Origin: Pseudomonas viridiflava
GTDB taxonomy: Bacteria; Pseudomonadota; Gammaproteobacteria; Pseudomonadales; Pseudomonadaceae
Reading direction: 5' to 3'
Assembly: GCF_900589395.1 (NCBI RefSeq)
Contig: NZ_UUIS01000009.1
Location: forward strand, 1-64,000
DNA length: 64,000 nucleotides
The position numbers and the translations under genes are program-made. The notes beneath the pieces are model-generated. The model searched no databases, was not told the origin of the DNA, and saw only the letters and a program-made list of their open reading frames with translations. Shown one piece after another: positions 21,048 to 63,110 of the stretch (the stretch's first letter is position 1; every line of letters starts with the position of its first letter).

Positions 21048-21322
21048 CGCCGTCCCTTTCGCCCTTTGACAGGGTGACCCGGGTCTCTTTTTCAACCGCT
21101 GCGCAGACGCAATGTCTCGCGCAGCGAGATCTGGTTCTATAGTTTCCCCACCTTTGGTCGAAAACCTTCAGGAACATGCAAGCCTGCAGGTTCGACAGGG
21201 TGTGTGGAAAACTGTTTGATGGCACGTTGCCGTTAGCTATCATCTGCGCCCTTGCAACCGACCGAACGTCTGAGCCCAGGCAGTCGAGCACGGCTCTGCA
21301 CTCTTGAATAACAGGATTCTGG
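21048..21322. other. Intergenic region before the response regulator
   Basis: 275 bp with a TATAGT at about 21136 and no other clear signal. I could not assign a full promoter. Confidence 0.4.
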
Positions 21323-22927
21323 ATGCTGGCGTACAACCAAAAAAGCTTTCTGATCGTTGACGACTTTTCCGACTTCCGCAGTTCGGTCAGGTCCATGCTG
21401 CGTGAACTGGGCGTCAAGGAAGTGGATACCGCCGACACCGGCGAGCAGGCCCTGCGCCAGTGCTCGCAAAAACGCTACGACTTCGTCTTGCATGACTTCA
21501 ACCTGGGCGACGGCCGCAAGAATGGCCAGCAGGTGCTTGAAGACCTGATGACCGAGCGCCTGCTCAGCCACGAAAGCGTGTTCATCATGGTGACCGCTGA
21601 AAACAGCCAGGCCATGGTCATGAGCGCGCTGGAGTGGGAGCCCGACGGCTACCTGACCAAGCCGTTCAACCGCGCCGGCCTGTCGCAGCGCCTGGAAAAA
21701 CTGGTGCAGCGCAAGACCCTGCTCAAGCCCATCTTCCAGGCCCTGGACCGTCAGAAGCCGATCGAGGTGCTGACTGCCTGCACCCAACTGATCCAGAAGG
21801 ACCCACGCCTGGCGCCTTTATGCCTGCGCTACAAGGCCACGGCCTTGCGTGACCTGAACCAGTTCGAGCCTTTGCACAAGCTGCTGACCTCGATCATCGA
21901 GGACCGGCCGACGCCCTGGGCGTTCGGCATGCTTGGCAGCCTGCTGCTCAAGCGGGGCAAGACCAGCGAGGCGCTGGCGGTCTATGAACAGGCCACCAAA
22001 GCCTTCCCGATGTTTCCGGCGCTGTTCGATGGCCTGGCCGACGTGCTGATCGCACGTGGCGATGCCAAGCGCGCACAGAGCGTGCTTGAAACCGCGGTGC
22101 GTCTGTCGCCTCTGGCCGTACGCCGCCAGACACTGCTGGGCAAGCTGGCGCTGGACAACAACGACTTCGACAGCGCCTCCAAGGCCTATCGCCAGGCCGT
22201 CAGCCAGGGCCGTCATTCGCGCTTCAAGGACCCGGAAACCAATCTGGGCCTGGCCCAGGCCTTGATCAGCCGCAGCGGCGACATGGGCCTGGATGCCCGT
22301 ACCCGCGTGGAAATCAACCAGGCCCTGGGCGAGGTCGCCAAGGAAAACGCCAGCGACGAGGGCCTGCAAGTGCGTGCCCGACTGATGAAGGCCACCAGCC
22401 TGCAACAGTCAGACCCCGAGACGGCCGGCAAACTGACCGAGCAGGCAGTGGGGCGGCTGGACAAGATGAGCCAGTTTCTCAGCGCCCCGGCGGCCCTGAC
22501 CGTGGCCACCCAACTGGGGCAACTGGGCCAGGCCGCCGCCAGTGCCGGCGTGCTCAAGAGCACGGCAGAAATCTACGGTGACGACCCGCAAGTCATGAAA
22601 AACCTGGCGCGCCTGACCGATGACCCCGAGATCCTGGGCGCCAACAAGGCGGCTGTCGACCTCAATATCCAGGGTGTGCGCTGCTACAAGGCAGGCCAGC
22701 TGGGTGAAGCCCAGGCCTTGTTCCGCCAGGCCCTGGCGTTGCAGCCCAAGAACATCAGCATTGCCTTGAACCTGGCGCAGTCGTTGCTGCACCCCGGACA
22801 GAACCTTGGACCGCAAGCGAACCAGGAATGCCGGGCCTGCCTGACCATGGTCGGCAAGATGCCCGACACTGATCCGCGTTTCGATCGTTATCAGAAACTC
22901 AAAGGAAGGGCATTCGGCGATGAGTGA
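21323..22927 (+). CDS. Response regulator with C-terminal TPR-like repeats
   Basis: 534 residues. The receiver domain (1-125) has acidic pocket Asp13/Asp14, phospho-acceptor Asp58 (LHDFNLGDG), Thr91 and Lys113 (LTKPF), all intact. The rest is helical and contains tetratricopeptide-type repeats (for example EALAVYEQATKAFP and EAQALFRQALALQP near the end), so the output is protein-protein interaction, not DNA binding. It overlaps the following kinase gene by 8 bp, so the two form a cognate pair. The biological input is unknown; the flagellar cluster begins 5 kb further on. Confidence 0.85.
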   Translation: MLAYNQKSFLIVDDFSDFRSSVRSMLRELGVKEVDTADTGEQALRQCSQKRYDFVLHDFNLGDGRKNGQQVLEDLMTERLLSHESVFIMVTAENSQAMVMSALEWEPDGYLTKPFNRAGLSQRLEKLVQRKTLLKPIFQALDRQKPIEVLTACTQLIQKDPRLAPLCLRYKATALRDLNQFEPLHKLLTSIIEDRPTPWAFGMLGSLLLKRGKTSEALAVYEQATKAFPMFPALFDGLADVLIARGDAKRAQSVLETAVRLSPLAVRRQTLLGKLALDNNDFDSASKAYRQAVSQGRHSRFKDPETNLGLAQALISRSGDMGLDARTRVEINQALGEVAKENASDEGLQVRARLMKATSLQQSDPETAGKLTEQAVGRLDKMSQFLSAPAALTVATQLGQLGQAAASAGVLKSTAEIYGDDPQVMKNLARLTDDPEILGANKAAVDLNIQGVRCYKAGQLGEAQALFRQALALQPKNISIALNLAQSLLHPGQNLGPQANQECRACLTMVGKMPDTDPRFDRYQKLKGRAFGDE

Positions 22928-23612
22928 TAAAGAGCAGGGCCTGGATTTTTCCATGGTGATCGCCTCCACCGTGCACGACATGAAGAACTCGCTGGCGACC
23001 CTGACCCGGGCGCACAGCGAGTGGCAGGCGCAGTTGCCGGCCCAGCAGCGCCACACCCCCGAGCATGGCGTGATCGAATACGAATTCGCCAACCTCAATG
23101 GCATGCTGGTGCAACTGCTGGGGCTGTACAAACTGGGCGTCAACCAGTTACCCCTGCGTCCCGACTACCACGAACTCGATGATTTCATCGAGGCGCAACT
23201 GGCCCACCATCAGGAAGTGTTCGAAAGCCGCGGCATCCGTGCCAGTACCGAGATCGACGACCTGATCCCGCTGGGCTTCTTCGACCGCGAACTGATCGGC
23301 TCGGTGGTCAGCAATATCCTGGTCAATGCCATCCGCTTCGCCCGCCAGGCGATTGCCGTCGAGATTGGCGAGCAGGATGGCCAGCTGTGCATCACCATCA
23401 ACGACGACGGCCCGGGTTATCCCGCGCACATGATCGAAAACCAGACCGACTACGTGCAGGGCATCAATGCCTTGAGCGGCAGCACCGGCCTGGGCCTGTA
23501 CTTTGCCTCCCACATTGCCCGGCTGCACCAGCGCAATGGCGTAGAAGGGCGCATCGAAATCGCCAATGGCGGTGGGTTGGGCGGCGGGCGGTTCAGTATT
23601 TTCCTGCCTTGA
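22920..23612 (+). CDS. Soluble minimal histidine kinase
   Basis: 230 residues with no membrane segment and no sensor domain. H box with His19 (STVHDMKNSL), N box Asn132/Asn136 (SNILVNAIRFA), G1 (DDGPGYP, about 162) and G2 (GSTGLGLYFA, 187-196) are all present, so it is a complete but minimal DHp-ATPase kinase. Start ATG at 22920 inside the end of the TPR response regulator gene indicates translational coupling. A signal must come from a partner protein, perhaps via the TPR part of the regulator. Confidence 0.85.
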   Translation: MSDKEQGLDFSMVIASTVHDMKNSLATLTRAHSEWQAQLPAQQRHTPEHGVIEYEFANLNGMLVQLLGLYKLGVNQLPLRPDYHELDDFIEAQLAHHQEVFESRGIRASTEIDDLIPLGFFDRELIGSVVSNILVNAIRFARQAIAVEIGEQDGQLCITINDDGPGYPAHMIENQTDYVQGINALSGSTGLGLYFASHIARLHQRNGVEGRIEIANGGGLGGGRFSIFLP

Positions 23613-23706
23613 TTGCGACACTGTCCTGTACCGCTGCCTGACGGACTCTACAGTTTTAGCGAAGTCGGCCGATCACCAGAGGTGAGCGACCAACAGGAGG
23701 AACGGC

Positions 23707-24573
23707 ATGAATCTACTCATCAATCAGGTCCGGAAAAAACCTGACTTTCGTCACGCGATCTACGCAGGCGATATTTTTCTTGATACGGACCTGAAGATGG
23801 CCGAAGCCTTGTGCGCCTTTGCCAGGGACAGCATCACCCTTGCCTTCGATGGTGAAACCGATCACCAGGCGTTGCACACCAAGATGTCGGTCGAGACATT
23901 CGTCACTCATGTACAGCGCTTGAAAGCACAGTTCACCAATTGCCAGCCGGTCAAGGACATGATTCGCCAGTTCATACTGGAGATCGGCCTGGATCCGGCC
24001 GACTACCTGTTCGATGTACCCAGAATCCGGGTTGTGCCCAACTACGATTACTTGCATGCCGGGGTCAGTTACGCCTACAAGCCGCATCGCGACACCTGGT
24101 ACGGCAGCCCGGAATGCCAGATCAACACCTGGATGCCGGTCTACAGCATCGAGCCTGAGCAGACCATGATGATCAACCCGGCCTATTTTGCCGTGCCGGT
24201 AAAGAATTCGTCGGCCGACTGGAGCCTGGCCCATTGGATCAATGTCCAGCGTCCTCTGGCCACTGCCAATGTCACTGAAGAAGTCCGTGTGCACCCGGTG
24301 CCGCTTGAAGCGTTGTCCACTGCCTCGCAATTGCGCGTGGCAGGCAACTCTGGCGATATGTTGCTGTTCTCCTCCGCGCACCTGCACGGCACGGTGGCCA
24401 ACCACACCGACAAGACACGCTTCAGTGTGGATTTCAGATTGATCCATATCGCTGACCTGTCGGCCGGGCGTGGCGCTGCCAATGTGGACAATCGTGTGCA
24501 GGAAGCCGAAGCCGGTCTTTCCCAATTCTTTTATGCCAGCGATTTTTCGCAATTCAAAGGAATCAACTCATGA
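23707..24573 (+). CDS. Putative Fe(II)/2-oxoglutarate-type dioxygenase
   Basis: 288-residue soluble protein with no family I can name firmly. A possible HxD metal motif is seen at His127-Arg-Asp129 (YKPHRDTWYG), and a distal His225/His227 with Arg238 or Arg244 (HLHGTVANHT..RFSVDFR), the spacing expected for phytanoyl-CoA-hydroxylase-like double-stranded beta-helix enzymes. RBS CAGGAGG before the ATG. It overlaps the next gene, a TylF-type methyltransferase, by ATGA, which suggests hydroxylation and then O-methylation of a shared substrate. Substrate unknown. Confidence 0.6.
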   Translation: MNLLINQVRKKPDFRHAIYAGDIFLDTDLKMAEALCAFARDSITLAFDGETDHQALHTKMSVETFVTHVQRLKAQFTNCQPVKDMIRQFILEIGLDPADYLFDVPRIRVVPNYDYLHAGVSYAYKPHRDTWYGSPECQINTWMPVYSIEPEQTMMINPAYFAVPVKNSSADWSLAHWINVQRPLATANVTEEVRVHPVPLEALSTASQLRVAGNSGDMLLFSSAHLHGTVANHTDKTRFSVDFRLIHIADLSAGRGAANVDNRVQEAEAGLSQFFYASDFSQFKGINS

Positions 24574-25292
24574 CCAAACGTCGCCTGACCGAAGCTGAAG
24601 TCCAATACAACGAAAAGCGCGCCAGTGTTCTCAAGCGCGTTGACTCGCAGTATGTAGCCGATGCGCCGTTTGTGTTTGCCAACCGTATTACCGTGAGCGC
24701 TGCTCTGTCACGCATGGAACTGTTCAAGATGATCCACGACGTGCCCGGCGCGATCATCGAATGCGGGGTCTACAAGGGCAACTCGTTGATGCTTTACATG
24801 CATTTGTCGATGATCCTTGAGCCGTACGCCATCAACCGCTCGATCATCGGGTTCGATACGTTTTCCGGATTCGCCAGCATCGATGCACAGGAAGACCCCA
24901 AAGACATTAACGAGAGCATGTTTTCCGACACCGACGAGTCGCTGATCCAGGACATGATTGACGCCAACGATCTGGTGCGTCCAGTCAATCGGATCCCGCG
25001 TTGCGAAATCATCAAGGGCGACATCATGGAGACGGTGCCTGCATTTCCGAAGACTCGCCCTGACCTGGTGGTGGCGATGCTGATTCTCGATACCGACCTG
25101 TACTCGTCTACCAAAGTGGCACTGGAAACCTTCCTGCCTTACATGCCCAAGGGCGCCATCGTTGTGCTTGATGAAGTCGCCTACCGCAACTTCCCGGGTG
25201 AAACCACTGCGCTGCGTGAAGTGCTTGATCTGAACAAGGTCGAGCTCAAGCGTTTACCGTTCGACTCCAGTGTCGGTTATTTCCGCGTCTGA
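24570..25292 (+). CDS. TylF/MycF-family O-methyltransferase
   Basis: 240-residue SAM-dependent methyltransferase of the macrocin-O-methyltransferase family. SAM motif ECGVYKGNS (64-72), FDTFSGF (95-101), and metal-binding Asp-rich loops ILDTDLYSSTK and VLDEVAYRNFPGET (about 172-208). Members typically methylate sugar hydroxyls using Mg2+. It starts within the stop of the dioxygenase-like gene (ATGA overlap). Its substrate could be a surface sugar; the flagellin glycosylation island lies 22 kb away, but a link is only a hypothesis. Confidence 0.85.
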   Translation: MTKRRLTEAEVQYNEKRASVLKRVDSQYVADAPFVFANRITVSAALSRMELFKMIHDVPGAIIECGVYKGNSLMLYMHLSMILEPYAINRSIIGFDTFSGFASIDAQEDPKDINESMFSDTDESLIQDMIDANDLVRPVNRIPRCEIIKGDIMETVPAFPKTRPDLVVAMLILDTDLYSSTKVALETFLPYMPKGAIVVLDEVAYRNFPGETTALREVLDLNKVELKRLPFDSSVGYFRV

Positions 25293-25418
25293 CCCGCTGC
25301 TGGACACGTCCTGCTGTTGACCGTGCCCGATTTCATTGCAGTGCTTGAAATCCTCGATGCCCGCCGCCTATGGTGTAGGCCTTGCCGCCAGGCGGTTTGA
25401 GTGAACGAAGGATCGAAG

Positions 25419-26762
25419 ATGGCCTGCAATGAGCGCCCTGCCATGACCGAGTGGCTGGACGGGGTGAATGAAGTGGAGTGCGTGACGCCAGACCTCAATG
25501 GCGTGCCACGAGGCAAGGTGATGACCGCCGAGGGATTTCTGGCCGGGCGGCGTCTGCAGATGGCGCGCGGTGTGCTGTTGCAGTGCGTGATGGGTGGGTA
25601 TCCGGCGGCACGCTTCTATGGGAGCGACGACGGTGACCTGGCGCTGGTGGCCGATCCGCAGCAAGTGCATCGCCTGCCCTGGAGCGACACGCCGCGGGCA
25701 CTGGCCATCTGCGCGGCCGACGAGATCGATGGCCAGCCGTGCAGCCTGTCGACCCGCGCGCAGCTCAAAGCCGTAGTGGCGCGCTATGCCGAACGTGGCC
25801 TGGCGCCGGTCGTGGCGACCGAGCTGGAATTCTATGTCTTTGCCCATAACCCCGACCCTGGGCAGCCGTTTGTGCCGCCCACCGGCCTGGATGGGCGTCG
25901 CGAGCAGGGCTTTTCCGCCTTCAGTGTCAGTTCCAATAACGGCTTGCGGCCCTTCTTTGCCGAGGTGCGCGCCTGCATGAGCGCGCTGGGCCTGCCCGTC
26001 GACACGGTAATGCACGAGATGGGCGTCAGCCAGTTCGAGATCAACCTGCTGCATGGCGACCCCTTGTTGCTGGCCGACCAGACGTTCCTGTTCAAGCACC
26101 TGCTCAAGGAAGTGGGGCTCAAGCACGGGCTGACCGTGGTGTGCATGGCCAAGCCGCTGGCGCACGCGGCCGGCAGTTCGATGCACATTCACCAGAGCGT
26201 GGTCGACCGCAGCTCAGGGCGCAACGTGTTCAACGATACCAACGACCAGCCGACCGCTGCGTTCCGGCACTTCATTGGCGGCCAGCAGGCTTGCCTGGCG
26301 GATTTCACCGCCTTGTTCGCGCCGAATGTGAACGCCTACCAGCGGCTGTTCCACCCCTATGCCTCGCCCAACAATGCCTGCTGGTCGCATGACAACCGCG
26401 CCGCCGGCCTGCGCATACCGGCCAGTGCGCCCGAGGCGCGGCGGGTCGAGAATCGCTTGCCGGGCGCGGATGCCAATCCCTACCTGGCCATTGCCGCCAG
26501 CCTGGCCGCGGGCCTCTATGGGATTGAGCATGCATTGGAGCCGACACCGGCCATGCAGGGCGAAATAGAGGTGCCTGAAAGCCTGGCCTTGCCCGACACC
26601 CTGCAATCGGCCCTGCGGCGCTTGGGGCGCAGTGCGCGGGCACGGGAACTGTTCGGCCCGTCGTTCATCGAAGGCTTCATCGCCAGCAAGACCCTGGAGC
26701 TGACCAGCTTTCTGGACGAGATCACGCCTTGGGAGCGACGGGTGCTGGGCAGCCAGATCTGA
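25419..26762 (+). CDS. Glutamine-synthetase-family enzyme (gamma-glutamylpolyamine synthetase type)
   Basis: 447 residues with GS motifs: QFEINLLHGDP (glutamate/ATP site), AGSSMHIHQSV (GxxxHxHxS ATP motif), FAPNVNAYQR, and the C-terminal EVRxR-like ARRVENRLPG. The Tyr-adenylylation region of GlnA is absent, and the sequence resembles PuuA/SpuI-type enzymes that gamma-glutamylate amines such as polyamines or ethanolamine. Start ATG at 25419 has AAGGA 7 bases upstream; a GTG at 25401 is less likely. An MFS transporter follows 77 bp later, perhaps importing the amine. Confidence 0.85.
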   Translation: MACNERPAMTEWLDGVNEVECVTPDLNGVPRGKVMTAEGFLAGRRLQMARGVLLQCVMGGYPAARFYGSDDGDLALVADPQQVHRLPWSDTPRALAICAADEIDGQPCSLSTRAQLKAVVARYAERGLAPVVATELEFYVFAHNPDPGQPFVPPTGLDGRREQGFSAFSVSSNNGLRPFFAEVRACMSALGLPVDTVMHEMGVSQFEINLLHGDPLLLADQTFLFKHLLKEVGLKHGLTVVCMAKPLAHAAGSSMHIHQSVVDRSSGRNVFNDTNDQPTAAFRHFIGGQQACLADFTALFAPNVNAYQRLFHPYASPNNACWSHDNRAAGLRIPASAPEARRVENRLPGADANPYLAIAASLAAGLYGIEHALEPTPAMQGEIEVPESLALPDTLQSALRRLGRSARARELFGPSFIEGFIASKTLELTSFLDEITPWERRVLGSQI

Positions 26763-50930: not shown

Positions 50931-51422
50931 TGGCGTATGAAAAAGCTGGGTCCTAATTGACCCGGCCTTTTGCCTGCCGACCTGTGATGATGTTGTCACT
51001 GTCCGCATCAAGACCTGCCAGGGTGCCTGCACCAGCTGTTCCATTGATAACTGCCTTTTTTCTTCCTTGAATTGCCATTAAACGTAAAAACATCAGGGCG
51101 ATGATCAGTTTCATGTCTTGACTCACCCTCGCTTCCACACTGTTCGGCGGTCGTTGCATAAACGTAAACAGCACCTTGAATGATAGGCCGCCCTGTGACG
51201 TCGATCTGTATGGCACAGGCGACAGGCGTGCCTGAACGAACCCATCACGCCGATCCTGGGAACTGGTCAAGCAATGCCATGCCCGGCAACGTCTTGGCGC
51301 ACTTCCTGCAAGCCCGTCCGGTATCGCCATGATTCCTTCATCGCCGCGGCATGAAGGACCTTGATGGCCGTCAATACACAGGCAGGCGGCATTAGACCGC
51401 CACGGTGGGGCAAGGGGAGCGC
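50931..51422. other. 492-bp gap between fgt1 and the sugar operon
   Basis: I see no confident gene. A minus-strand frame at 50953-51114 would encode a 53-residue peptide (MKLIIALMFLRLM...) with only a loose AGGG upstream; I do not call it. The region is less GC-rich than the neighbours and should hold the promoter of rfbF, which I could not pinpoint. A polypurine RBS AAGGGGAG precedes rfbF. Confidence 0.4.
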
Positions 51423-52196
51423 ATGAAGGCAGTCATTCTGGCCGGTGGGCTGGGCACACGTATCAGTGAAGAGTCGCACCTCAAGCCCAAGCCGATGATC
51501 GAGATCGGCGGCAAGCCAATTCTTTGGCACATCATGAAGCAGTACTCGGCCCACGGTATCCACGATTTCGTGATCTGCCTGGGGTACAAGGGCTACGCGA
51601 TCAAGGATTTCTTCGCCAACTATTTCCTGCACACGTCCGATGTGACGTTCGACATGCGTAAAAACCGCATGGACGTGCACCAGAACTACAGCGAACCCTG
51701 GAGCGTCACCCTGATCGACACCGGTGAAGAGACCATGACCGGTGGCCGCTTGAAGCGCGCCAGTGAATACCTCAAGCACGAGCAGGCGTTCTGCTTCACG
51801 TACGGCGATGGTGTGTCGGACCTGAACATTCGTGCGCTGATCGATTTCCATCACGCTCATGGCCACATGGCAACCGTCACGGCCGTGCAGCCGCCAGGAC
51901 GCTATGGCGCACTCAATTGCGATGGCGACAAGGTACTGGGCTTTACCGAGAAACCACCGGGTGATGGCGCCTGGATCAATGGCGGCTTCTTTGTGCTGTC
52001 GCCCAAGGTGTTGCCTTACATCGAGGGTGACGACATGCCCTGGGAGGCCGAGCCCTTGAACCGGCTGGCCAGTGAAGGCCAGTTACATGCCTTTCAGCAC
52101 ACCGGGTTCTGGCACCCGATGGACACCCTGCGTGACAAGAATTATCTGGAACAACTGTGGCTGAGCGGGGAGGCGCCGTGGAAGCAATGGGATTGA
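51423..52196 (+). CDS. rfbF: Glucose-1-phosphate cytidylyltransferase RfbF
   Basis: Makes CDP-glucose from glucose 1-phosphate and CTP, the entry step of CDP-deoxysugar pathways. 257 residues. Nucleotidyltransferase signature LAGGLGTR (6-13) followed by KPKPMIEIGGKP, and FTYGDGVSDLN for the metal. RBS AAGGGGAG before the ATG at 51423. It overlaps rfbG by 19 bp. The choice of CDP rather than dTDP or GDP is set by this gene and its partner. Confidence 0.94.
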   Translation: MKAVILAGGLGTRISEESHLKPKPMIEIGGKPILWHIMKQYSAHGIHDFVICLGYKGYAIKDFFANYFLHTSDVTFDMRKNRMDVHQNYSEPWSVTLIDTGEETMTGGRLKRASEYLKHEQAFCFTYGDGVSDLNIRALIDFHHAHGHMATVTAVQPPGRYGALNCDGDKVLGFTEKPPGDGAWINGGFFVLSPKVLPYIEGDDMPWEAEPLNRLASEGQLHAFQHTGFWHPMDTLRDKNYLEQLWLSGEAPWKQWD

Positions 52197-53260
52197 GTCC
52201 GGCTTTCTGGCAGGGCAAGCGTGTACTGATCACCGGCCATACTGGCTTCAAGGGCAGTTGGCTGAGCCTGTGGCTGCAAGGGCTGGGCGCCAGCGTGACC
52301 GGCTTTGCCCTGGACCCTGGCACCCGGCCTAGCCTGTTCGAACTGGCGCAAGCGGGCCAGGGCATCGATGATCGGCGTGGCGACTTGCGTGACCTGGGCG
52401 CATTGCTTGAGGTGATGGCCCAGGCCCGGCCCGAGATTGTCCTGCACCTGGCCGCGCAACCGCTGGTGCGTGAAGCCTACCGCGATCCGTTGGGCACTTA
52501 CTCCAGCAATGTCATGGGCACCTTGCATCTGCTTGAAGCCATCCGGCAGGTCGGCGGGGTCAAGGCATGCGTGCTGGTCACCACCGACAAGGTCTATGCC
52601 AATCAGGAATGGGCCTGGCCTTATCGCGAAAACGAAGCGCTGGGCGGGCACGACCCTTATAGCAGCAGCAAAGCATGCTGTGAGTTGCTGGCCCAGTCCT
52701 ATGCGGCTTCTTTCTTTACCGCCGACCGCTATCAGGAACACGGCCTGGCCCTGGCCACGGCGCGGGCCGGCAACGTGCTGGGCGGTGGTGACTTTGCTCC
52801 TGAACGGCTGATTCCTGATGTGCTGCGGGCCTGGTCGGCCAGCGAACCGGTCACCTTGCGCTACCCGCAAGCGGTCAGGCCCTGGCAGCATGCGCTGGAG
52901 CCACTGGCCGGCTACCTGTTGCTGGCGCACCGTTTGTATGAACACGGTCCGGCGTTTGCCGGTGCCTGGAACTTCGGCCCGGGCGAAGCTGACATGTGCA
53001 GCGTCGGTGAGGTGGTACGTCTGCTGGCCGAGCGCTGGCCGCAAGCCCCCGGCGTGCAGGTTGAGCCGGCCCAGTTGCATGAGGCCGGGCTGTTGCGCCT
53101 GGACAGCAGCCGCGCACGGCAATTGCTGGGCTGGCACCCGCGCTGGTCGCTGGTGCAATGCCTGGAGCACACATTGAATTGGCACCTGGCCTGGAAGGCC
53201 GGCGGCGATATGCGCCAGGTCACACTGGCCCAATTGAATCTGTTCAGGGGGCACCTGTGA
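52178..53260 (+). CDS. rfbG: CDP-glucose 4,6-dehydratase RfbG
   Basis: SDR-superfamily dehydratase turning CDP-glucose into CDP-4-keto-6-deoxyglucose. 360 residues. NAD-fold motif TGHTGFKGSWL near residue 18, TTDKVYANQ, and the catalytic YSSSK. Start: I prefer GTG at 52178 because GGGGAGG lies 5 bases before it; the ATG at 52187 is 14 bases away and a GTG at 52157 precedes that Shine-Dalgarno. It overlaps rfbF upstream by 19 bp and the epimerase gene downstream by 4 bp. Confidence 0.94.
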   Translation: MEAMGLSPAFWQGKRVLITGHTGFKGSWLSLWLQGLGASVTGFALDPGTRPSLFELAQAGQGIDDRRGDLRDLGALLEVMAQARPEIVLHLAAQPLVREAYRDPLGTYSSNVMGTLHLLEAIRQVGGVKACVLVTTDKVYANQEWAWPYRENEALGGHDPYSSSKACCELLAQSYAASFFTADRYQEHGLALATARAGNVLGGGDFAPERLIPDVLRAWSASEPVTLRYPQAVRPWQHALEPLAGYLLLAHRLYEHGPAFAGAWNFGPGEADMCSVGEVVRLLAERWPQAPGVQVEPAQLHEAGLLRLDSSRARQLLGWHPRWSLVQCLEHTLNWHLAWKAGGDMRQVTLAQLNLFRGHL

Positions 53261-53817
53261 GTGAGTTTGCGTTGCAGCCACTGTCGCTGGAGGGATTGTT
53301 CCTGGTTCAGCACAAACGCCACAGCGATGCGCGGGGGCACTTTTCCAGGCTGTTTTGCGAAGGCAGCCTGAGTGCCTTCGGCCAGGCGTTTCATATTCGC
53401 CAGATCAATCATTCCTGCACGTATGAGAGGGGCAGTGTTCGCGGCCTGCATTATCAGACCGCTGTGCAACCGGAAGCCAAGCTGATCAGTTGCCTGCGCG
53501 GGGAGGTGTTGGACGTCGCGGTTGACCTGCGCCCGGACTCACCGACCTTTCTGCGCTGGCATGCCCAGCCCCTCAAGGCAGGCGACGGCCAGGGTCTGTT
53601 GATTCCGGCCGGCTTTGCCCATGGATTCCAGGCCATGAGCGACGAGGCTGAACTGCTGTACCTGCACAGCGCCGATTACACGCCGGAACACGAAGGTGGT
53701 TTGTCGGTGCTGGACCCGAAGCTGGCTATCACCTGGCCGCTGGCTGTCAAGAATCTGTCGCCGCGTGACAGTGCGCACCCGCCGCTGGACGATGCTTTTG
53801 CTGGAGTTCGTGTATGA
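53257..53817 (+). CDS. RmlC-like (dTDP-/CDP-)4-dehydrodeoxyhexose 3,5-epimerase family protein
   Basis: 186-residue cupin of the RmlC family. Catalytic-type His65 (RGLHYQ), Tyr141 region (SADYTPEHEGG) and LDPKLAITWP at the end are conserved. It should epimerise the CDP-4-keto-6-deoxyhexose at C3 and/or C5. GTG start in a GTGA overlap with rfbG. Whether C3, C5 or both are inverted cannot be told from sequence. Confidence 0.82.
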   Translation: MSEFALQPLSLEGLFLVQHKRHSDARGHFSRLFCEGSLSAFGQAFHIRQINHSCTYERGSVRGLHYQTAVQPEAKLISCLRGEVLDVAVDLRPDSPTFLRWHAQPLKAGDGQGLLIPAGFAHGFQAMSDEAELLYLHSADYTPEHEGGLSVLDPKLAITWPLAVKNLSPRDSAHPPLDDAFAGVRV

Positions 53818-55040
53818 ACTGCCGAGGTTGCGGCACCCCTTTGAACCTGCCACTGATCGATCTGGGCACTTCGCCGCCTTCCAATGCGTATGTGCTGGCC
53901 GGGCAGCTGGAGCATGCCGAGCAATGGATACCGCTGAAAGTGCAGGTGTGTGAGCACTGTTGGCTGGTGCAGACGGATGACTACACCCGGGCTGACAGCC
54001 TGTTCGATGCCGACTATGCCTATTTCAGTTCGTTTTCCAGCACCTGGCTCGACCATGCACGGCGCTATGTCAGCAATATGGTCGAGCGTTTCGGCCTGAC
54101 GGCGGACAGCCGGGTGGTGGAGATTGCGGCCAATGACGGTTACCTGTTGCAGTATGTGGCCGAACGCGGCATTGCCTGTCTGGGGGTCGAGCCGACCCGC
54201 AGCACGGCCCAGGCTGCACGTGGCAAGGGGCTGGAGATCCGCGAGCTGTTTTTTGGGCGCCAGACCGCACAGATGCTGTGTGACGAGGGCTGGGCCGCCG
54301 ACCTGATGGCGGCCAACAATGTGTTGGCTCACGTGCCGGACATCAACGACTTCCTTAGCGGCTTTGCAACACTGCTCAAGCCGGAGGGTGTGGTGACCTT
54401 CGAGTTTCCGCACCTGCAGGCGCTGATGGCCGGTGCCCAGTTCGATACCCTGTACCACGAGCATTATTCCTATCTGTCACTGACGGCGGTCGATACGCTG
54501 TGCCAGCGTAACGGCCTGGCCATTTTCGATGTACAGCACCTGTCGACCCATGGCGGTTCTCTGCGTGTATTTGCCCGACGCAGCGATGGACTGCATCGCG
54601 CACCGCAACCTGCGGTGGAGCAACAGCTGAATGCCGAATTGCACGCAGGCATCAAGACCGCGGCGTTCTATGCGACGCTGGCGCCAGCCGCTGAGCGTAT
54701 CAAGCACCAGTTGCTGCGCTTCTTGTTGCAGGCCAAGGCCGATGGCAAGCGCGTAGCAGGGTATGGCGCTGCGGCCAAAGGCAATACCTTGCTCAACTAC
54801 GCCGGCATCAGGCCTGACTTGCTGGCGTGGGTGGCCGATGCCAGCCCGCACAAGCAGGGCAAGTTTTTACCGGGCAGTCGCATTCCGGTGGTGGCGCCTG
54901 AGCGCCTGCTGCAAGAGCAGCCCGATTACGTTCTGGTGCTGCCCTGGAACCTGCTCGATGAAGTGCGTCAGCAGTACCCGCAGGTACAGCAGTGGGGCGG
55001 GCGCTTTGTCATCGCCGTGCCTGAGTTGAGGCTGCTGTGA
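53814..55040 (+). CDS. Sugar C-methyltransferase (NovU/TylC3-type, zinc finger)
   Basis: 408 residues. N-terminal zinc site Cys3, Cys6, Cys46, Cys49. SAM domain motif VVEIAANDGY (101-110). Active-site block YHEHYSYL (214-221) typical of 4-ketosugar C-methyltransferases such as TcaB9/TylC3/NovU. C-terminal Rossmann-like domain with GYGAAAKGNTLLNYAG. These enzymes add a methyl at the carbon next to the 4-keto group (usually C3; C5 in NovU). It overlaps the epimerase and reductase genes by 4 bp each, so it works on the same CDP-4-keto intermediate. Confidence 0.9.
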   Translation: MNCRGCGTPLNLPLIDLGTSPPSNAYVLAGQLEHAEQWIPLKVQVCEHCWLVQTDDYTRADSLFDADYAYFSSFSSTWLDHARRYVSNMVERFGLTADSRVVEIAANDGYLLQYVAERGIACLGVEPTRSTAQAARGKGLEIRELFFGRQTAQMLCDEGWAADLMAANNVLAHVPDINDFLSGFATLLKPEGVVTFEFPHLQALMAGAQFDTLYHEHYSYLSLTAVDTLCQRNGLAIFDVQHLSTHGGSLRVFARRSDGLHRAPQPAVEQQLNAELHAGIKTAAFYATLAPAAERIKHQLLRFLLQAKADGKRVAGYGAAAKGNTLLNYAGIRPDLLAWVADASPHKQGKFLPGSRIPVVAPERLLQEQPDYVLVLPWNLLDEVRQQYPQVQQWGGRFVIAVPELRLL

Positions 55041-55903
55041 GCGTTGGGCATGTGCTGGTCACCGGCGCCAGCGGGTTTGTCGGGCGCCACCTGGTCCGGG
55101 CCTTGCTCGACAGCGGCCTCCGTGTACGCGCGGTGGCACGCCATCTTGAACACGCCCGTGCAATGCCCTGGTTCAGCGAGGTGGAATTTATCGCCGCCGA
55201 TGTGCATGCCGCTGACTTGGACGTGGCCGGCTTGACCGAAGGTATCGATGTCCTGGCGCACCTGGCCTGGCCAGGGCTTCCGGCGTATCAGGGACTGTTT
55301 CATTTCGAGCACAACCTGTTTGCCGATTACGCCTTTATCAAGGCTGTCGTGCAGGCGGGTGTCGATCAGGTGCTGATCACCGGCACGTGTTTTGAGTACG
55401 GCCTGCAAGAGGGTGAGTTGAGCGAAGCCACCGAGCCGAAACCTGCCAACCCCTATGGGCTGGCCAAACATTCGTTGCGTCTGTTTCTTGAGGCCCTGTG
55501 TCGCGAGCAGCCGTTTTCCTTGCAGTGGGCGCGCCTGTTTTACCTGCATGGCGAGGGACAAAACCCCAACAGCCTGATGGCCAGCCTGGAGCGGGCAATC
55601 GACAGCGGTGCTGCGCAGTTCGACATGTCGGCCGGCGAGCAACTGCGTGACTACCTGCCTGTAGAGCAGGCCGCGGCCTGTCTGGCGAGCATCATCCAGC
55701 GTCCCGCTTTCAGTGGGGTAATCAATTGCTGCAGTGGCCGGCCGGTGTCGGTGCGGGCATTGGTCGAGCGGCGGGTGCTCGAGCGCGGCTCGAACATTCG
55801 TCTCAACCTGGGCCACTACCCTTATTCAGTGCACGAGCCCCTGGCGTTCTGGGGCAGTGCACGACGTCTTGAACAGTTACTGGAGGCTGGGCATGAGCAA
55901 TGA
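55037..55903 (+). CDS. SDR-family reductase, probable CDP-4-ketohexose reductase
   Basis: 288 residues. NAD(P) motif VTGASGFVGRH (8-18), YxxxK in NPYGLAKHSLRL, and a Thr/Cys in LITGTCFEYG. Members in such operons reduce the 4-keto group to give the final deoxyhexose. GTG start overlaps the C-methyltransferase by 4 bp; its 3' end overlaps the next gene by 11 bp. An epimerase role is the alternative. Confidence 0.78.
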   Translation: MSVGHVLVTGASGFVGRHLVRALLDSGLRVRAVARHLEHARAMPWFSEVEFIAADVHAADLDVAGLTEGIDVLAHLAWPGLPAYQGLFHFEHNLFADYAFIKAVVQAGVDQVLITGTCFEYGLQEGELSEATEPKPANPYGLAKHSLRLFLEALCREQPFSLQWARLFYLHGEGQNPNSLMASLERAIDSGAAQFDMSAGEQLRDYLPVEQAAACLASIIQRPAFSGVINCCSGRPVSVRALVERRVLERGSNIRLNLGHYPYSVHEPLAFWGSARRLEQLLEAGHEQ

Positions 55904-56963
55904 GCTGTATCGGGCCGATGGCATGCCCGTTTTGCAGAATCGCACGTTTGCGGATGCCGCTTCGGCACGGGCATCGGTCAGTGCCGACGTGGTGCTGGTG
56001 CAGGATCCGCACAGTGGCTTGGTGTTCAATGCGGCATTCGACCCGCAAAAGCTCAGCTACGACAGTGACTATCAGAACGAACAGGCGCATTCAGGGCACT
56101 TCAAGGCCCACCTGGACGCGGTCGAGCAGATCATCGCGCGGCACTTTGGCGGTAAAACCCTGATCGAGGTAGGCTGCGGCAAGGGCTATTTTCTCGAACA
56201 GCTACGCAGCAAGGGCTTTGACATCGTCGGCATTGATCCGGCCTATGAGGGGGACAGTCCCCATGTGACCAAGGCGCCATTCACCCCTGAAAGCGGCTTG
56301 TCTGCACAGGCAGTGGTGCTGCGGCACGTGTTGGAGCATATCCCGGACCCAGTGGCGTTCTTGCACACGATTTCCCACGCCAATGGCGGCGGCCTGATCT
56401 ACATCGAAGTGCCTTGCCTGGACTGGATTCTGGCGCATCGAGCCTGGTTCGACGTGTTCTATGAGCATGTCAATTATTTCCGTCTTGAAGATTTCCAGCG
56501 CCTGTTCGGCACTGTGCAGGAGGCCGGGCATCTGTTTGGTGGACAGTACCTGTATGTGGTGGCGGACCTGGCCAGCTTGCGCACTCACTTGCCGGCACCC
56601 AAGACGCAGGTGCAAGTGCCTGCCGGTTTCCGGCACAGCATCGAGCAGGCCCTGAGCATTGCCAGAAACTCTCCTGGGCAGGCGCTGGCTATCTGGGGTG
56701 CGGCCTCCAAGGGCGTTATCTATTCATTGTTCCTGCAGCGCGCCGGGGTCACGGTCGACCAGATTGTTGACATCAATCCGGCCAAGCAAGGTCGTTATCT
56801 GCCCTTGAGCGGCCTGAAGGTGTCTTCGCCACAAGAGGCTATGCAGGCCTTGCCTGAGGGGGCGCATCTGTTTGTGATGAATTCCAACTACCTGGATGAA
56901 ATCAGGCGCATGACCGATGACCGCTATGTCTACCACGCGGTCGACGCTGCGACATTCCAATAA
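55893..56963 (+). CDS. Second Methyltransf_14-type SAM methyltransferase (no zinc finger)
   Basis: 356 residues. SAM motif IEVGCGKGYF (91-100) and RHVLEHIPDP; FYEHVNYF (189-196) matches the YHEHYSYL block of the C-methyltransferase next door, and the C-terminal domain has WGAASKGVIYSLF like GYGAAAKGNTLL there. It therefore shares the fold, but lacks the N-terminal Cys4 zinc site. It may methylate a second position, on carbon or oxygen. Start ATG 55893, coupled to the SDR gene by overlap. Confidence 0.78.
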   Translation: MSNELYRADGMPVLQNRTFADAASARASVSADVVLVQDPHSGLVFNAAFDPQKLSYDSDYQNEQAHSGHFKAHLDAVEQIIARHFGGKTLIEVGCGKGYFLEQLRSKGFDIVGIDPAYEGDSPHVTKAPFTPESGLSAQAVVLRHVLEHIPDPVAFLHTISHANGGGLIYIEVPCLDWILAHRAWFDVFYEHVNYFRLEDFQRLFGTVQEAGHLFGGQYLYVVADLASLRTHLPAPKTQVQVPAGFRHSIEQALSIARNSPGQALAIWGAASKGVIYSLFLQRAGVTVDQIVDINPAKQGRYLPLSGLKVSSPQEAMQALPEGAHLFVMNSNYLDEIRRMTDDRYVYHAVDAATFQ

Positions 56964-56981
56964 TTGCAATCGAGGTTGAAC

Positions 56982-57716
56982 ATGACCGGTACCCAGGCTC
57001 AAGAATTCGCAGCGCAAAATGAAGCCGACGTCCAGGCGCAAGGCGAGAACCCAAGACTGCGCGCCCTGGCAACTGATTTTTTCAATGAGTCGGCCAGGCA
57101 CAAATACAGCTACCACTTCTCGTGGATGGGTCGCCCCATCATCCAGCTGCCACAAGACATGGTGGCCATGCAGGAGATCATCTGGCAGTTCAAGCCCGAC
57201 CTGATCATTGAATGCGGCATTGCCCATGGCGGCTCGATCATTTACTACGCCTCGATCCTGGAGTTGCTGGGGCATGGCGAGGTCCTGGGCATCGATGTCG
57301 ATATTCGTCCCCATAACCGTGAGGCCATCGAAAGCCACCCGATGTTCAAGCGCATCTCGATGATCGAGGGTTCCAGCATCGATCCGGCCATTGCGGCTCG
57401 GGTCGCGGCGCTGGCGGCTGGCAAGAAAGTCATTGTGGTGCTTGATTCCAACCACACCCACGACCACGTGCTTGAAGAGCTGCGTCTGTATGCGCCGCTT
57501 GTCACGGTGGGCAGCTATTGCGTGGTGATGGACACGGTGGTCGAAGACATGCCGGCCGATGCCTTTCCTGATCGCCCGTGGGGGCCAGGTGACAACCCGA
57601 AAACAGCGGTGTGGCAATACCTCAAGGAAAGCAGCGACTTCGAGATCGACCGGCGCGTGGACAACAAGCTGCTGCTTTCGGTAGCGCCGGACGGCTATCT
57701 GTTGCGAGTCAAGTAA
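56982..57716 (+). CDS. CmcI-family protein (cephalosporin hydroxylase family)
   Basis: 244 residues of the CmcI/rhamnosyl-O-methyltransferase family: IIECGIAHGGSIIYYASIL (about 76-94) is the SAM motif, then LGIDVDIRPHN and VLDSNHTHDHVLEEL. Despite the family's 'hydroxylase' label, members have a methyltransferase fold and several act on deoxysugars. Start ATG at 56982 follows GAGG. 18 bp from the methyltransferase gene, so the same operon. A sugar O-methyltransferase is the best guess. Confidence 0.78.
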   Translation: MTGTQAQEFAAQNEADVQAQGENPRLRALATDFFNESARHKYSYHFSWMGRPIIQLPQDMVAMQEIIWQFKPDLIIECGIAHGGSIIYYASILELLGHGEVLGIDVDIRPHNREAIESHPMFKRISMIEGSSIDPAIAARVAALAAGKKVIVVLDSNHTHDHVLEELRLYAPLVTVGSYCVVMDTVVEDMPADAFPDRPWGPGDNPKTAVWQYLKESSDFEIDRRVDNKLLLSVAPDGYLLRVK

Positions 57717-62258: not shown

Positions 62259-63110
62259 ATGGCTTTAACAGTAAACACCAACGTTGCCTCCCTGAACGTG
62301 CAAAAGAACCTGGGCCGTGCCTCTGACGCGCTGTCGACTTCCATGACCCGCCTGTCTTCCGGCCTGAAAATCAACAGCGCCAAAGACGACGCTGCCGGCC
62401 TGCAGATCGCAACCCGCATGACTTCGCAGATCCGTGGCCAGACCATGGCAATTAAGAACGCGAACGACGGTATCTCCATCGCCCAGACCGCTGAAGGCGC
62501 GATGCAGGAACAAACCAACATTCTGCAGCGTATGCGTGAACTGGCTGTTCAGTCCCGCAACGACAACAACAGTGAAGCTGACCGTGACGCCCTGAACAAA
62601 GAGTTCGCGGCCATGTCCGACGAGCTGACCCGTATCGCCGAAAGTACCAACCTGAACGGCAAGAACCTGCTGGACGGCTCGGCTGGCACCATGACCTTCC
62701 AGGTCGGTTCCAACTCCGGCACCAGCAACCAGATCACTCTGTCGCTGAGCGCTTCCTTTGTTGCTTCGTCGCTGGGTGTCAACTCCGACGCCATCGCGAT
62801 CACAGGTGCGGCCAGTTCGGACGCCCAGGCCAGCTTTGAAGCTGCCATCGGTGCAATCGACTCGGCTCTGGATACCATCAACGCCGCGCGTGCTGACCTC
62901 GGTGCTGCCCAAAACCGCCTGACCAGCACCATTTCCAACTTGCAGAACATCAACGAAAACGCCACCGCTGCACTGGGTCGCGTACAAGACACCGACTTCG
63001 CTGCTGAAACCGCGCAGTTGACCAAGCAGCAGACTCTGCAGCAGGCGTCGACTTCGGTTCTGGCCCAGGCCAACCAGCTGCCGTCCTCGGTTCTGAAACT
63101 GCTCCAGTAA
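62259..63110 (+). CDS. fliC: Flagellin FliC
   Basis: 283-residue filament subunit, one of the short flagellins with almost no D2/D3. Conserved N-terminal helices, including TRLSSGLKINSAKDDAAG (30-47) that forms the flg22 region recognised by plant FLS2. The C-terminal D0 helix ends SVLKLLQ. The centre (about 140-205) is Ser-rich: Ser141, 151, 153, 156, 162, 164, 166, 170, 171, 176, 186, 187, 192 and 202, candidate glycosylation sites for Fgt1/Fgt2. RBS GAGG before ATG 62259. Confidence 0.97.
   Translation: MALTVNTNVASLNVQKNLGRASDALSTSMTRLSSGLKINSAKDDAAGLQIATRMTSQIRGQTMAIKNANDGISIAQTAEGAMQEQTNILQRMRELAVQSRNDNNSEADRDALNKEFAAMSDELTRIAESTNLNGKNLLDGSAGTMTFQVGSNSGTSNQITLSLSASFVASSLGVNSDAIAITGAASSDAQASFEAAIGAIDSALDTINAARADLGAAQNRLTSTISNLQNINENATAALGRVQDTDFAAETAQLTKQQTLQQASTSVLAQANQLPSSVLKLLQ

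Follow-up and report, generated by a model that had tools for sequence, protein, structure and literature searches.

The window analysed here, a stretch of 64,000 nucleotides from Pseudomonas viridiflava (contig NZ_UUIS01000009.1), contains two adjacent anonymous genes coding for a putative oxygenase and a predicted methyltransferase (Table 1). The preliminary description had recognized them as a pair coupled by an ATGA overlap, and this holds for both reading frames, the overlap lying at positions 24570-24573. The pair is enclosed by a histidine kinase gene, here termed hk, and a gene for a glutamine-synthetase-like protein, here termed gs, and is preceded by a site resembling sigma-28/FliA-type promoters. 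The G+C contents of the two genes are 55.2% and 54.4%, in a window of 61.2%; the response-regulator gene two places upstream stands at 63.1% and the gs gene downstream at 65.6%. The low G+C content of the pair suggests that it was acquired. A second region relevant to the analysis, the flgL-fliC island, spans 47.3-60.7 kb and beyond, with the start of fliC at 62259.

Table 1. Genes and sites of the window discussed in the text, numbered from its first nucleotide
Feature	Position	Strand	Properties
Putative sigma-28/FliA-type promoter TACAGTTT-N11-GCCGATCA	23649..23675	+	31 bp before ATG; 14/16 consensus positions
First gene of the pair, putative Fe(II)/2-oxoglutarate oxygenase	23707..24573	+	288 aa; H127-x-D129...H227, R238-x-S240
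Second gene of the pair, predicted TylF/CalS11-type sugar O-methyltransferase	24570..25292	+	240 aa
Histidine kinase (hk), left edge of the pair's interval	22920..23612	+	Position compared with PMC3927599 and with genomes lacking the pair
Glutamine-synthetase-like protein (gs), right edge of the interval	25401..26762	+	Pfam Gln-synt_C
Glucose-1-phosphate cytidylyltransferase (RfbF), flagellin island	51405..52196	+	TIGR02623, 457.7 bits, cut-off 300.25
CDP-glucose 4,6-dehydratase (RfbG), flagellin island	52157..53260	+	TIGR02622, 473.3 bits, cut-off 278.45
RmlC-like sugar 3,5-epimerase	53158..53817	+	Pfam dTDP_sugar_isom; TIGR01221 154.2, just under cut-off 155.75
Sugar 3-C-methyltransferase, flagellin island	53814..55040	+	Best solved relative 5t64, a sugar 3-C-methyltransferase, E 1.4e-75
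NAD-dependent epimerase/reductase-type protein, flagellin island	55037..55903	+	Pfam Epimerase
CmcI/rhamnosyl O-methyltransferase-type protein, flagellin island	56964..57716	+	Pfam RMNT_CmcI, 314.1 bits; NF045824 below cut-off

The first protein had been credited with a possible HxD...H site, and an alignment bears this out, as H127, D129 and H227, together with R238 and S240, are invariant in all 17 aligned relatives. Of these residues, H127, D129, H227 and R238 would provide the metal triad and the 2-oxoglutarate arginine characteristic of PhyH-like oxygenases. When its profile was compared by hhalign with four PhyH-like proteins, one annotated as such and three assigned by eye, residues 116-247 were matched with a probability of 92.4 and an E-value of 5.1e-7, and the same four residues were matched. 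Its scores against the curated Pfam models fall below their cut-offs (PhyH, 18.6 versus 22 bits; 2OG-FeII_Oxy_5, 21.8 versus 27), and its best NCBIfam match, TIGR04324, a 2OG-Fe(II) oxygenase family of sporadic carbohydrate clusters, covers residues 214-247 and reaches 34.5 bits where 150 are required, and hence it is not a member of that family. A sequence search of the PDB gave no match; a profile search gave three hits, of which the best, a designed protein (E 0.12), and the next, the PhyH-type protein PtlH (PDB: 2rdn), are not significant, the match to PtlH being a weak one to the C-terminal motif (E 0.44) in a protein that shares the HxD...H...RxS arrangement. An AlphaFold2 model drawing on only 13 similar sequences (the window and 12 loci) reached a mean pLDDT of 41 and is too poor for the fold to be read, and a scan of viral_contigs for more diverse relatives returned none. 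Judged from its sequence, the first protein is probably an Fe(II)/2-oxoglutarate oxygenase. It forms a family with a group of relatives bearing an HRDTW motif, among which we found no characterized member. Relatives of this HRDTW family, 25-31% identical, also occur as stand-alone oxygenases with neither a methyltransferase nor a flagellar-type promoter (L080, L081, L082, L087, L091, L092, L093, L061 and L062), and in Aminobacter a stand-alone relative follows cydAB.

The second protein shows the TylF signature noted previously, with 52.2 bits against a Pfam cut-off of 23, and residues D174, D176, D201 and E202, which we take to be acidic metal-site residues binding the metal, are invariant in nine of nine sequences. 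Its closest solved relative is CalS11 (PDB: 3tos, 4gf5), a TDP-rhamnose 3'-O-methyltransferase, matched over residues 32-239 with an E-value of 8.8e-32. CalS11 belongs to an antibiotic pathway of an actinomycete, and we know of no paired dioxygenase or flagellar control for it. Other TylF relatives occur at 33-34% identity within the flagellin islands of two genomes (G128 and G159) and at about 40% identity in Azospirillum, in a cluster that also contains an amidotransferase gene and a PhyH gene, and in a Paenibacillus cluster with rfbF and rfbG. The protein is thus predicted to be a SAM-dependent sugar O-methyltransferase. A natural-product pathway, considered on account of CalS11, was rejected: no polyketide or peptide-synthase genes lie beside the pair in the ten loci whose ORFs were read by eye rather than by family search (L040, L041, L043, L044, L046, L047, L049, L051, L057 and L089). 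One of these (L041:955-8142, G077) has beside the pair a cluster of glycosyltransferase-, DegT-, WbqC-, methyltransferase-, PhyH-, second TylF- and acyltransferase-type genes, with families assigned by eye; the ORF sizes of another locus (L042, G214) match this sugar-type cluster, with the same TylF match.

The proposed conservation of the pair as a two-gene unit was confirmed in a sample of 298 Pseudomonas genomes, one per species, in which both genes are found in 32, this genome included, and are adjacent by listed coordinates in each of them. In these 32 genomes the first gene is matched over nearly its full length at 65% identity or more (65-88% outside this genome), and the second, in the same 32, at 83% or more (83-98% outside this genome). 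In five sequence comparisons, with synonymous changes near saturation, dN/dS ranges from 0.045 to 0.21 in the first gene and from 0.009 to 0.13 in the second. Both genes are therefore under purifying selection, the methyltransferase being the more constrained. Together with the constant adjacency, these values put the pair beyond chance. The unit moves as a block and occupies five chromosomal sites, whose neighbouring genes were named by eye: the hk-gs interval in 2 genomes, a position beside lpdV in 6 (in one of which, G258, lpdV is visible only in a longer stretch), one between flgF and a phhR-like regulator in 8, one beside a phosphate-transporter (pit) or PACE-type gene in 15, and one beside fbp in 1. 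The hk-gs position is occupied in the window and in one other genome (L039, G149), with the remaining 30 genomes carrying the pair elsewhere; a decayed copy with stops also lies between hk and gs in G022 (L056:9474-10307). Upstream of this remnant a promoter-like element scoring 13/16 persists, and the genome has the sugar 3-C-methyltransferase discussed below. A single conserved neighbourhood can accordingly be rejected for the pair. None of the window's flagellar genes occurs within about 10 kb on either side of the pair in eight of the 16 pit/PACE and fbp loci, the other eight being seen over only about 1.5 kb. The neighbours of the pair alone therefore say little.

Upstream regions were scanned with TAAAGTTT-N11-GCCGATAA, which we take to be the sigma-28 consensus, with spacers of 10-12 allowed and spacers of 10 and 12 penalized by one point. 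The site of the pair is the joint second-best on the 86.5-kb contig, where scores of at least 14/16 are reached at only three sites, those of flgM, fliS and the pair. All 32 pair genomes, and with them all five chromosomal sites, have a sigma-28-type site with an 11-bp spacer ahead of the first gene. Across 42 loci (38 distinct, four duplicates) the best site invariably has a spacer of 11, scores 11-15/16 and lies 30-165 bp before the start, and two genomes with scores of 12 (G044 and G112) complete the set of 32. Dinucleotide shuffles of the same upstream stretches gave means of 8.5-9.4 and maxima of 10-12, so that a score of 11 can be reached by chance and is by itself not significant; the weight lies in the recurring core GCCGAY, the spacing and the position at five unrelated sites. 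Among the upstream regions of 339 other ORFs in 20 loci (19 with the pair and one with a remnant), 31 reach 11, 14 reach 12 and none 14. A stricter pattern, derived post hoc from the pair's own sites, matches 0 of 336 other upstream regions, the three further matches among the 339 being pair oxygenases. Relatives of the first gene with no methyltransferase in the fetched stretch score only 8-10/16 upstream in 11 of 11 cases. As a check of the consensus on late flagellar genes, flgM scores 15 (one place), fliS 13-14 in seven of seven places and fliC 11-12 in seven of seven, with the variant GACGATAA; fliD (six places) and flaG (five places) score only 8-10. In a review (PMC8036289), the class IV genes under FliA control include fliC, the che and mot genes and flgM/N, and in P. 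putida fliS and fliD are likewise said to require FliA. The promoter-like sites argue that the pair is almost certainly subject to flagellar regulation.

The position of the pair in this genome bears on the same question. In P. syringae pv. tabaci 6605, seven genes for the terminal flagellin sugar, a modified viosamine, are located between gs and hk, according to Yamamoto and others (PMC3927599). The preliminary description had stated that no biosynthetic cluster is near, and in doing so it overlooked that the locus is the position of this flagellin viosamine island. The window's hk-gs interval contains no vio genes and, apart from shadow ORFs, the pair alone. The viosamine island (vioA, M, T, S, B, R and acp) encodes VioM, a protein of 241 aa, about the size of the pair's methyltransferase, whose deletion strips the methyl group from the terminal flagellin sugar. 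The two systems differ in that viosamine is an amino sugar, whereas the proposed substrate of the pair is a C-methyl sugar, and in that the pair is preceded by a promoter-like site of its own and is also found at four further chromosomal sites.

The variability of the interval was surveyed by searching the gs protein in 60 genomes lacking the pair; 40 matched at E 1e-150, 20 of the 40 stretches were fetched, and both edges were visible in 14. In 11 of these 14, hk and gs are directly adjacent; two have a vio-type island (L098 and L102), with gene sizes close to those given in PMC3927599, and one has another cassette (L096). In the other six stretches hk is not seen, and two of them (L108 and L109) have glycosyltransferase clusters beside gs. 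The vio-type islands (L098 and L102) contain nothing that tblastn matches to the window's methyltransferase at E 1e-8. In neither island does a sigma-28-like site score 12 or more, and therefore not every hk-gs cassette has such a promoter. The cassette of the remaining genome (L096:1613-3567, G056) combines a methyltransferase-TPR gene, preceded by a sigma-28-like site of 14/16, with a divergent family-2-type glycosyltransferase, the families being assigned by eye, and is a further candidate flagellin cassette. According to PMC3927599, the Group IV strains, B728a among them, carry two hypothetical genes in this interval, and their flagellin glycan is composed of HexNAc, a methylated deoxyhexose and a deoxyhexose.

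A further connection to flagellin emerges from the phyletic pattern of the sugar 3-C-methyltransferase in the flgL-fliC island. This enzyme is found at 75% identity or more in 84 of the 298 genomes, six further matches at 53-54% being left out of the count. It is present in 31 of 32 pair genomes versus 53 of the 266 others (Fisher p 2e-18, uncorrected for phylogeny); the sole pair genome without it, G222, which is 73% complete, has no match at E 0.001. The pair is optional, since 53 genomes have the enzyme and lack the pair. In the seven other pair genomes read, out of 31, the flgL-fliC island contains the dehydratase, the 3-C-methyltransferase and the CmcI-type gene, with the cytidylyltransferase present in the ORF lists of the same seven islands; in two genomes lacking the pair, neither island has these genes. 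The CmcI-type gene was found in 78 of the 80 genomes tested among the 84 with the 3-C-methyltransferase. We also considered whether the pair tracks a second methyltransferase of the island (ORF 55734) and rejected this, since it is matched in 51 of 80 genomes and nine pair genomes have no match at the threshold used; the pair therefore does not depend on that enzyme. Of the 51 matches to the ORF at 55734-56963 of the window, 36 contain one or more stops and 14 start only at residues 48-52, and the beginning of the ORF as listed is therefore probably non-coding.

The reading that we consider likely is that the pair forms a late flagellar operon, which tailors a CDP-derived 3-C-methyl-6-deoxyhexose of the flagellin glycan by hydroxylation and O-methylation. 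The pair would then be a class-IV flagellar operon, transcribed by FliA (sigma-28), released on completion of the hook, at the time when flagellin is made. The flgL-fliC island would build the CDP-linked 3-C-methyl-6-deoxyhexose by means of RfbF, RfbG, the epimerase, the 3-C-methyltransferase and the reductase, and its glycosyltransferases would place this sugar in the flagellin O-glycan. The first protein would insert a hydroxyl on the C-methyl deoxyhexose, and the TylF-type protein would O-methylate a hydroxyl of that residue, the substrate being the nucleotide sugar or the glycan, resulting in a filament with an altered, probably more hydrophobic glycan. Hydroxylation with O-methylation fits the motifs of the two proteins; the dependence on FliA, the flagellin target, the identity of the sugar, the order of the reactions and the atoms modified are what we infer. 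Action on the flagellin glycan is highly probable, and the C-methyl sugar is the probable substrate.

Alternatively, the pair could act on the common rhamnose of the flagellin glycan rather than on a C-methyl sugar, with the co-occurrence reflecting common ancestry or glycosyltransferases used in common. CalS11, to which the second protein is closest among solved structures, is indeed a TDP-rhamnose 3'-O-methyltransferase, and PMC3927599 places rhamnose next to the protein in the flagellin of P. syringae pv. tabaci and reports a methylated deoxyhexose in B728a. Further, sequences in the methyltransferase tree cluster for the most part according to chromosomal site, and common descent may account for part of the co-occurrence. 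However, rhamnose should be the more widespread sugar, whereas nearly all of the pair genomes have a 3-C-methyltransferase that is restricted to 84 of the 298 genomes, and we regard rhamnose as an unlikely substrate.

Two other alternatives move the pair away from the flagellin glycan altogether. If it belonged to the flagellar regulon and acted on flagellin itself, on another late flagellar or chemotaxis protein or on a small molecule, with no glycan involved, the FliA-type promoter would be explained, and some stand-alone oxygenase relatives do lie beside genes with no evident sugar role, such as cydAB in Aminobacter. This is very unlikely given that the TylF relatives of the second protein are found in sugar clusters (G159, G128, Azospirillum and Paenibacillus). 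The preliminary description had left the choice between a surface polysaccharide and the flagellin sugar as targets. The former, comprising LPS or exopolysaccharide, would make the promoter matches fortuitous, and it is consistent with the occurrence of a TylF relative and a PhyH gene as neighbours in a cluster of polysaccharide type; against it stand the promoter-like site that each of the 32 genomes carries, at five chromosomal sites, the viosamine-island position and the co-occurrence with the flgL-fliC cassette, the 3-C-methyltransferase of which is present in 31 of 32 pair genomes. These observations favour the flagellin option and make the surface polysaccharide a very unlikely target.

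The tailoring of a C-methylated flagellin sugar by the pair can be extended to a broader scenario, which we advance only tentatively as a possibility, namely that the pair is a portable, self-promoted two-enzyme module making an undescribed flagellin sugar and that the hk-gs interval is a hot spot for swapping alternative flagellin end-sugar cassettes. The occupants of this hot spot would be the viosamine genes, a methyltransferase with a glycosyltransferase, the present pair, or nothing. The flagellum is a surface met by hosts and phages, and if the scenario is true, cassette swapping at hk-gs alters the surface presented to plants, animals and phages bound to the flagellum. Virulence in P. 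syringae pv. tabaci required flagellin glycosylation (PMC3927599), and the O-methylation of a flagellin sugar by a cassette enzyme at the hk-gs locus is already known from VioM. What is new, as far as the open literature shows, is a pair of oxygenase and methyltransferase genes that is optional and mobile, carries a flagellar-type promoter of its own and is nearly confined to genomes with the CDP 3-C-methyl sugar cassette; we found no report of this pair in the open literature, a scope outside which most subscription papers fall. The analysis links an anonymous pair, present in 32 of 298 sampled Pseudomonas genomes, to a flagellin glycosylation pathway, and the proposed model predicts a mass change in flagellin glycopeptides. 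It also suggests that flagellin-tailoring genes located far from flagellar clusters are recognizable by a sigma-28 promoter rather than by their neighbours.

A further sigma-28-like element (13/16), at positions 21138-21164, lies upstream of the response-regulator and histidine kinase genes (21323-23612). Comparable sites precede this signalling pair in L096 and L102 (13 each) and in L098 (12), and the response-regulator/histidine-kinase pair may thus be flagellar-regulated as well.
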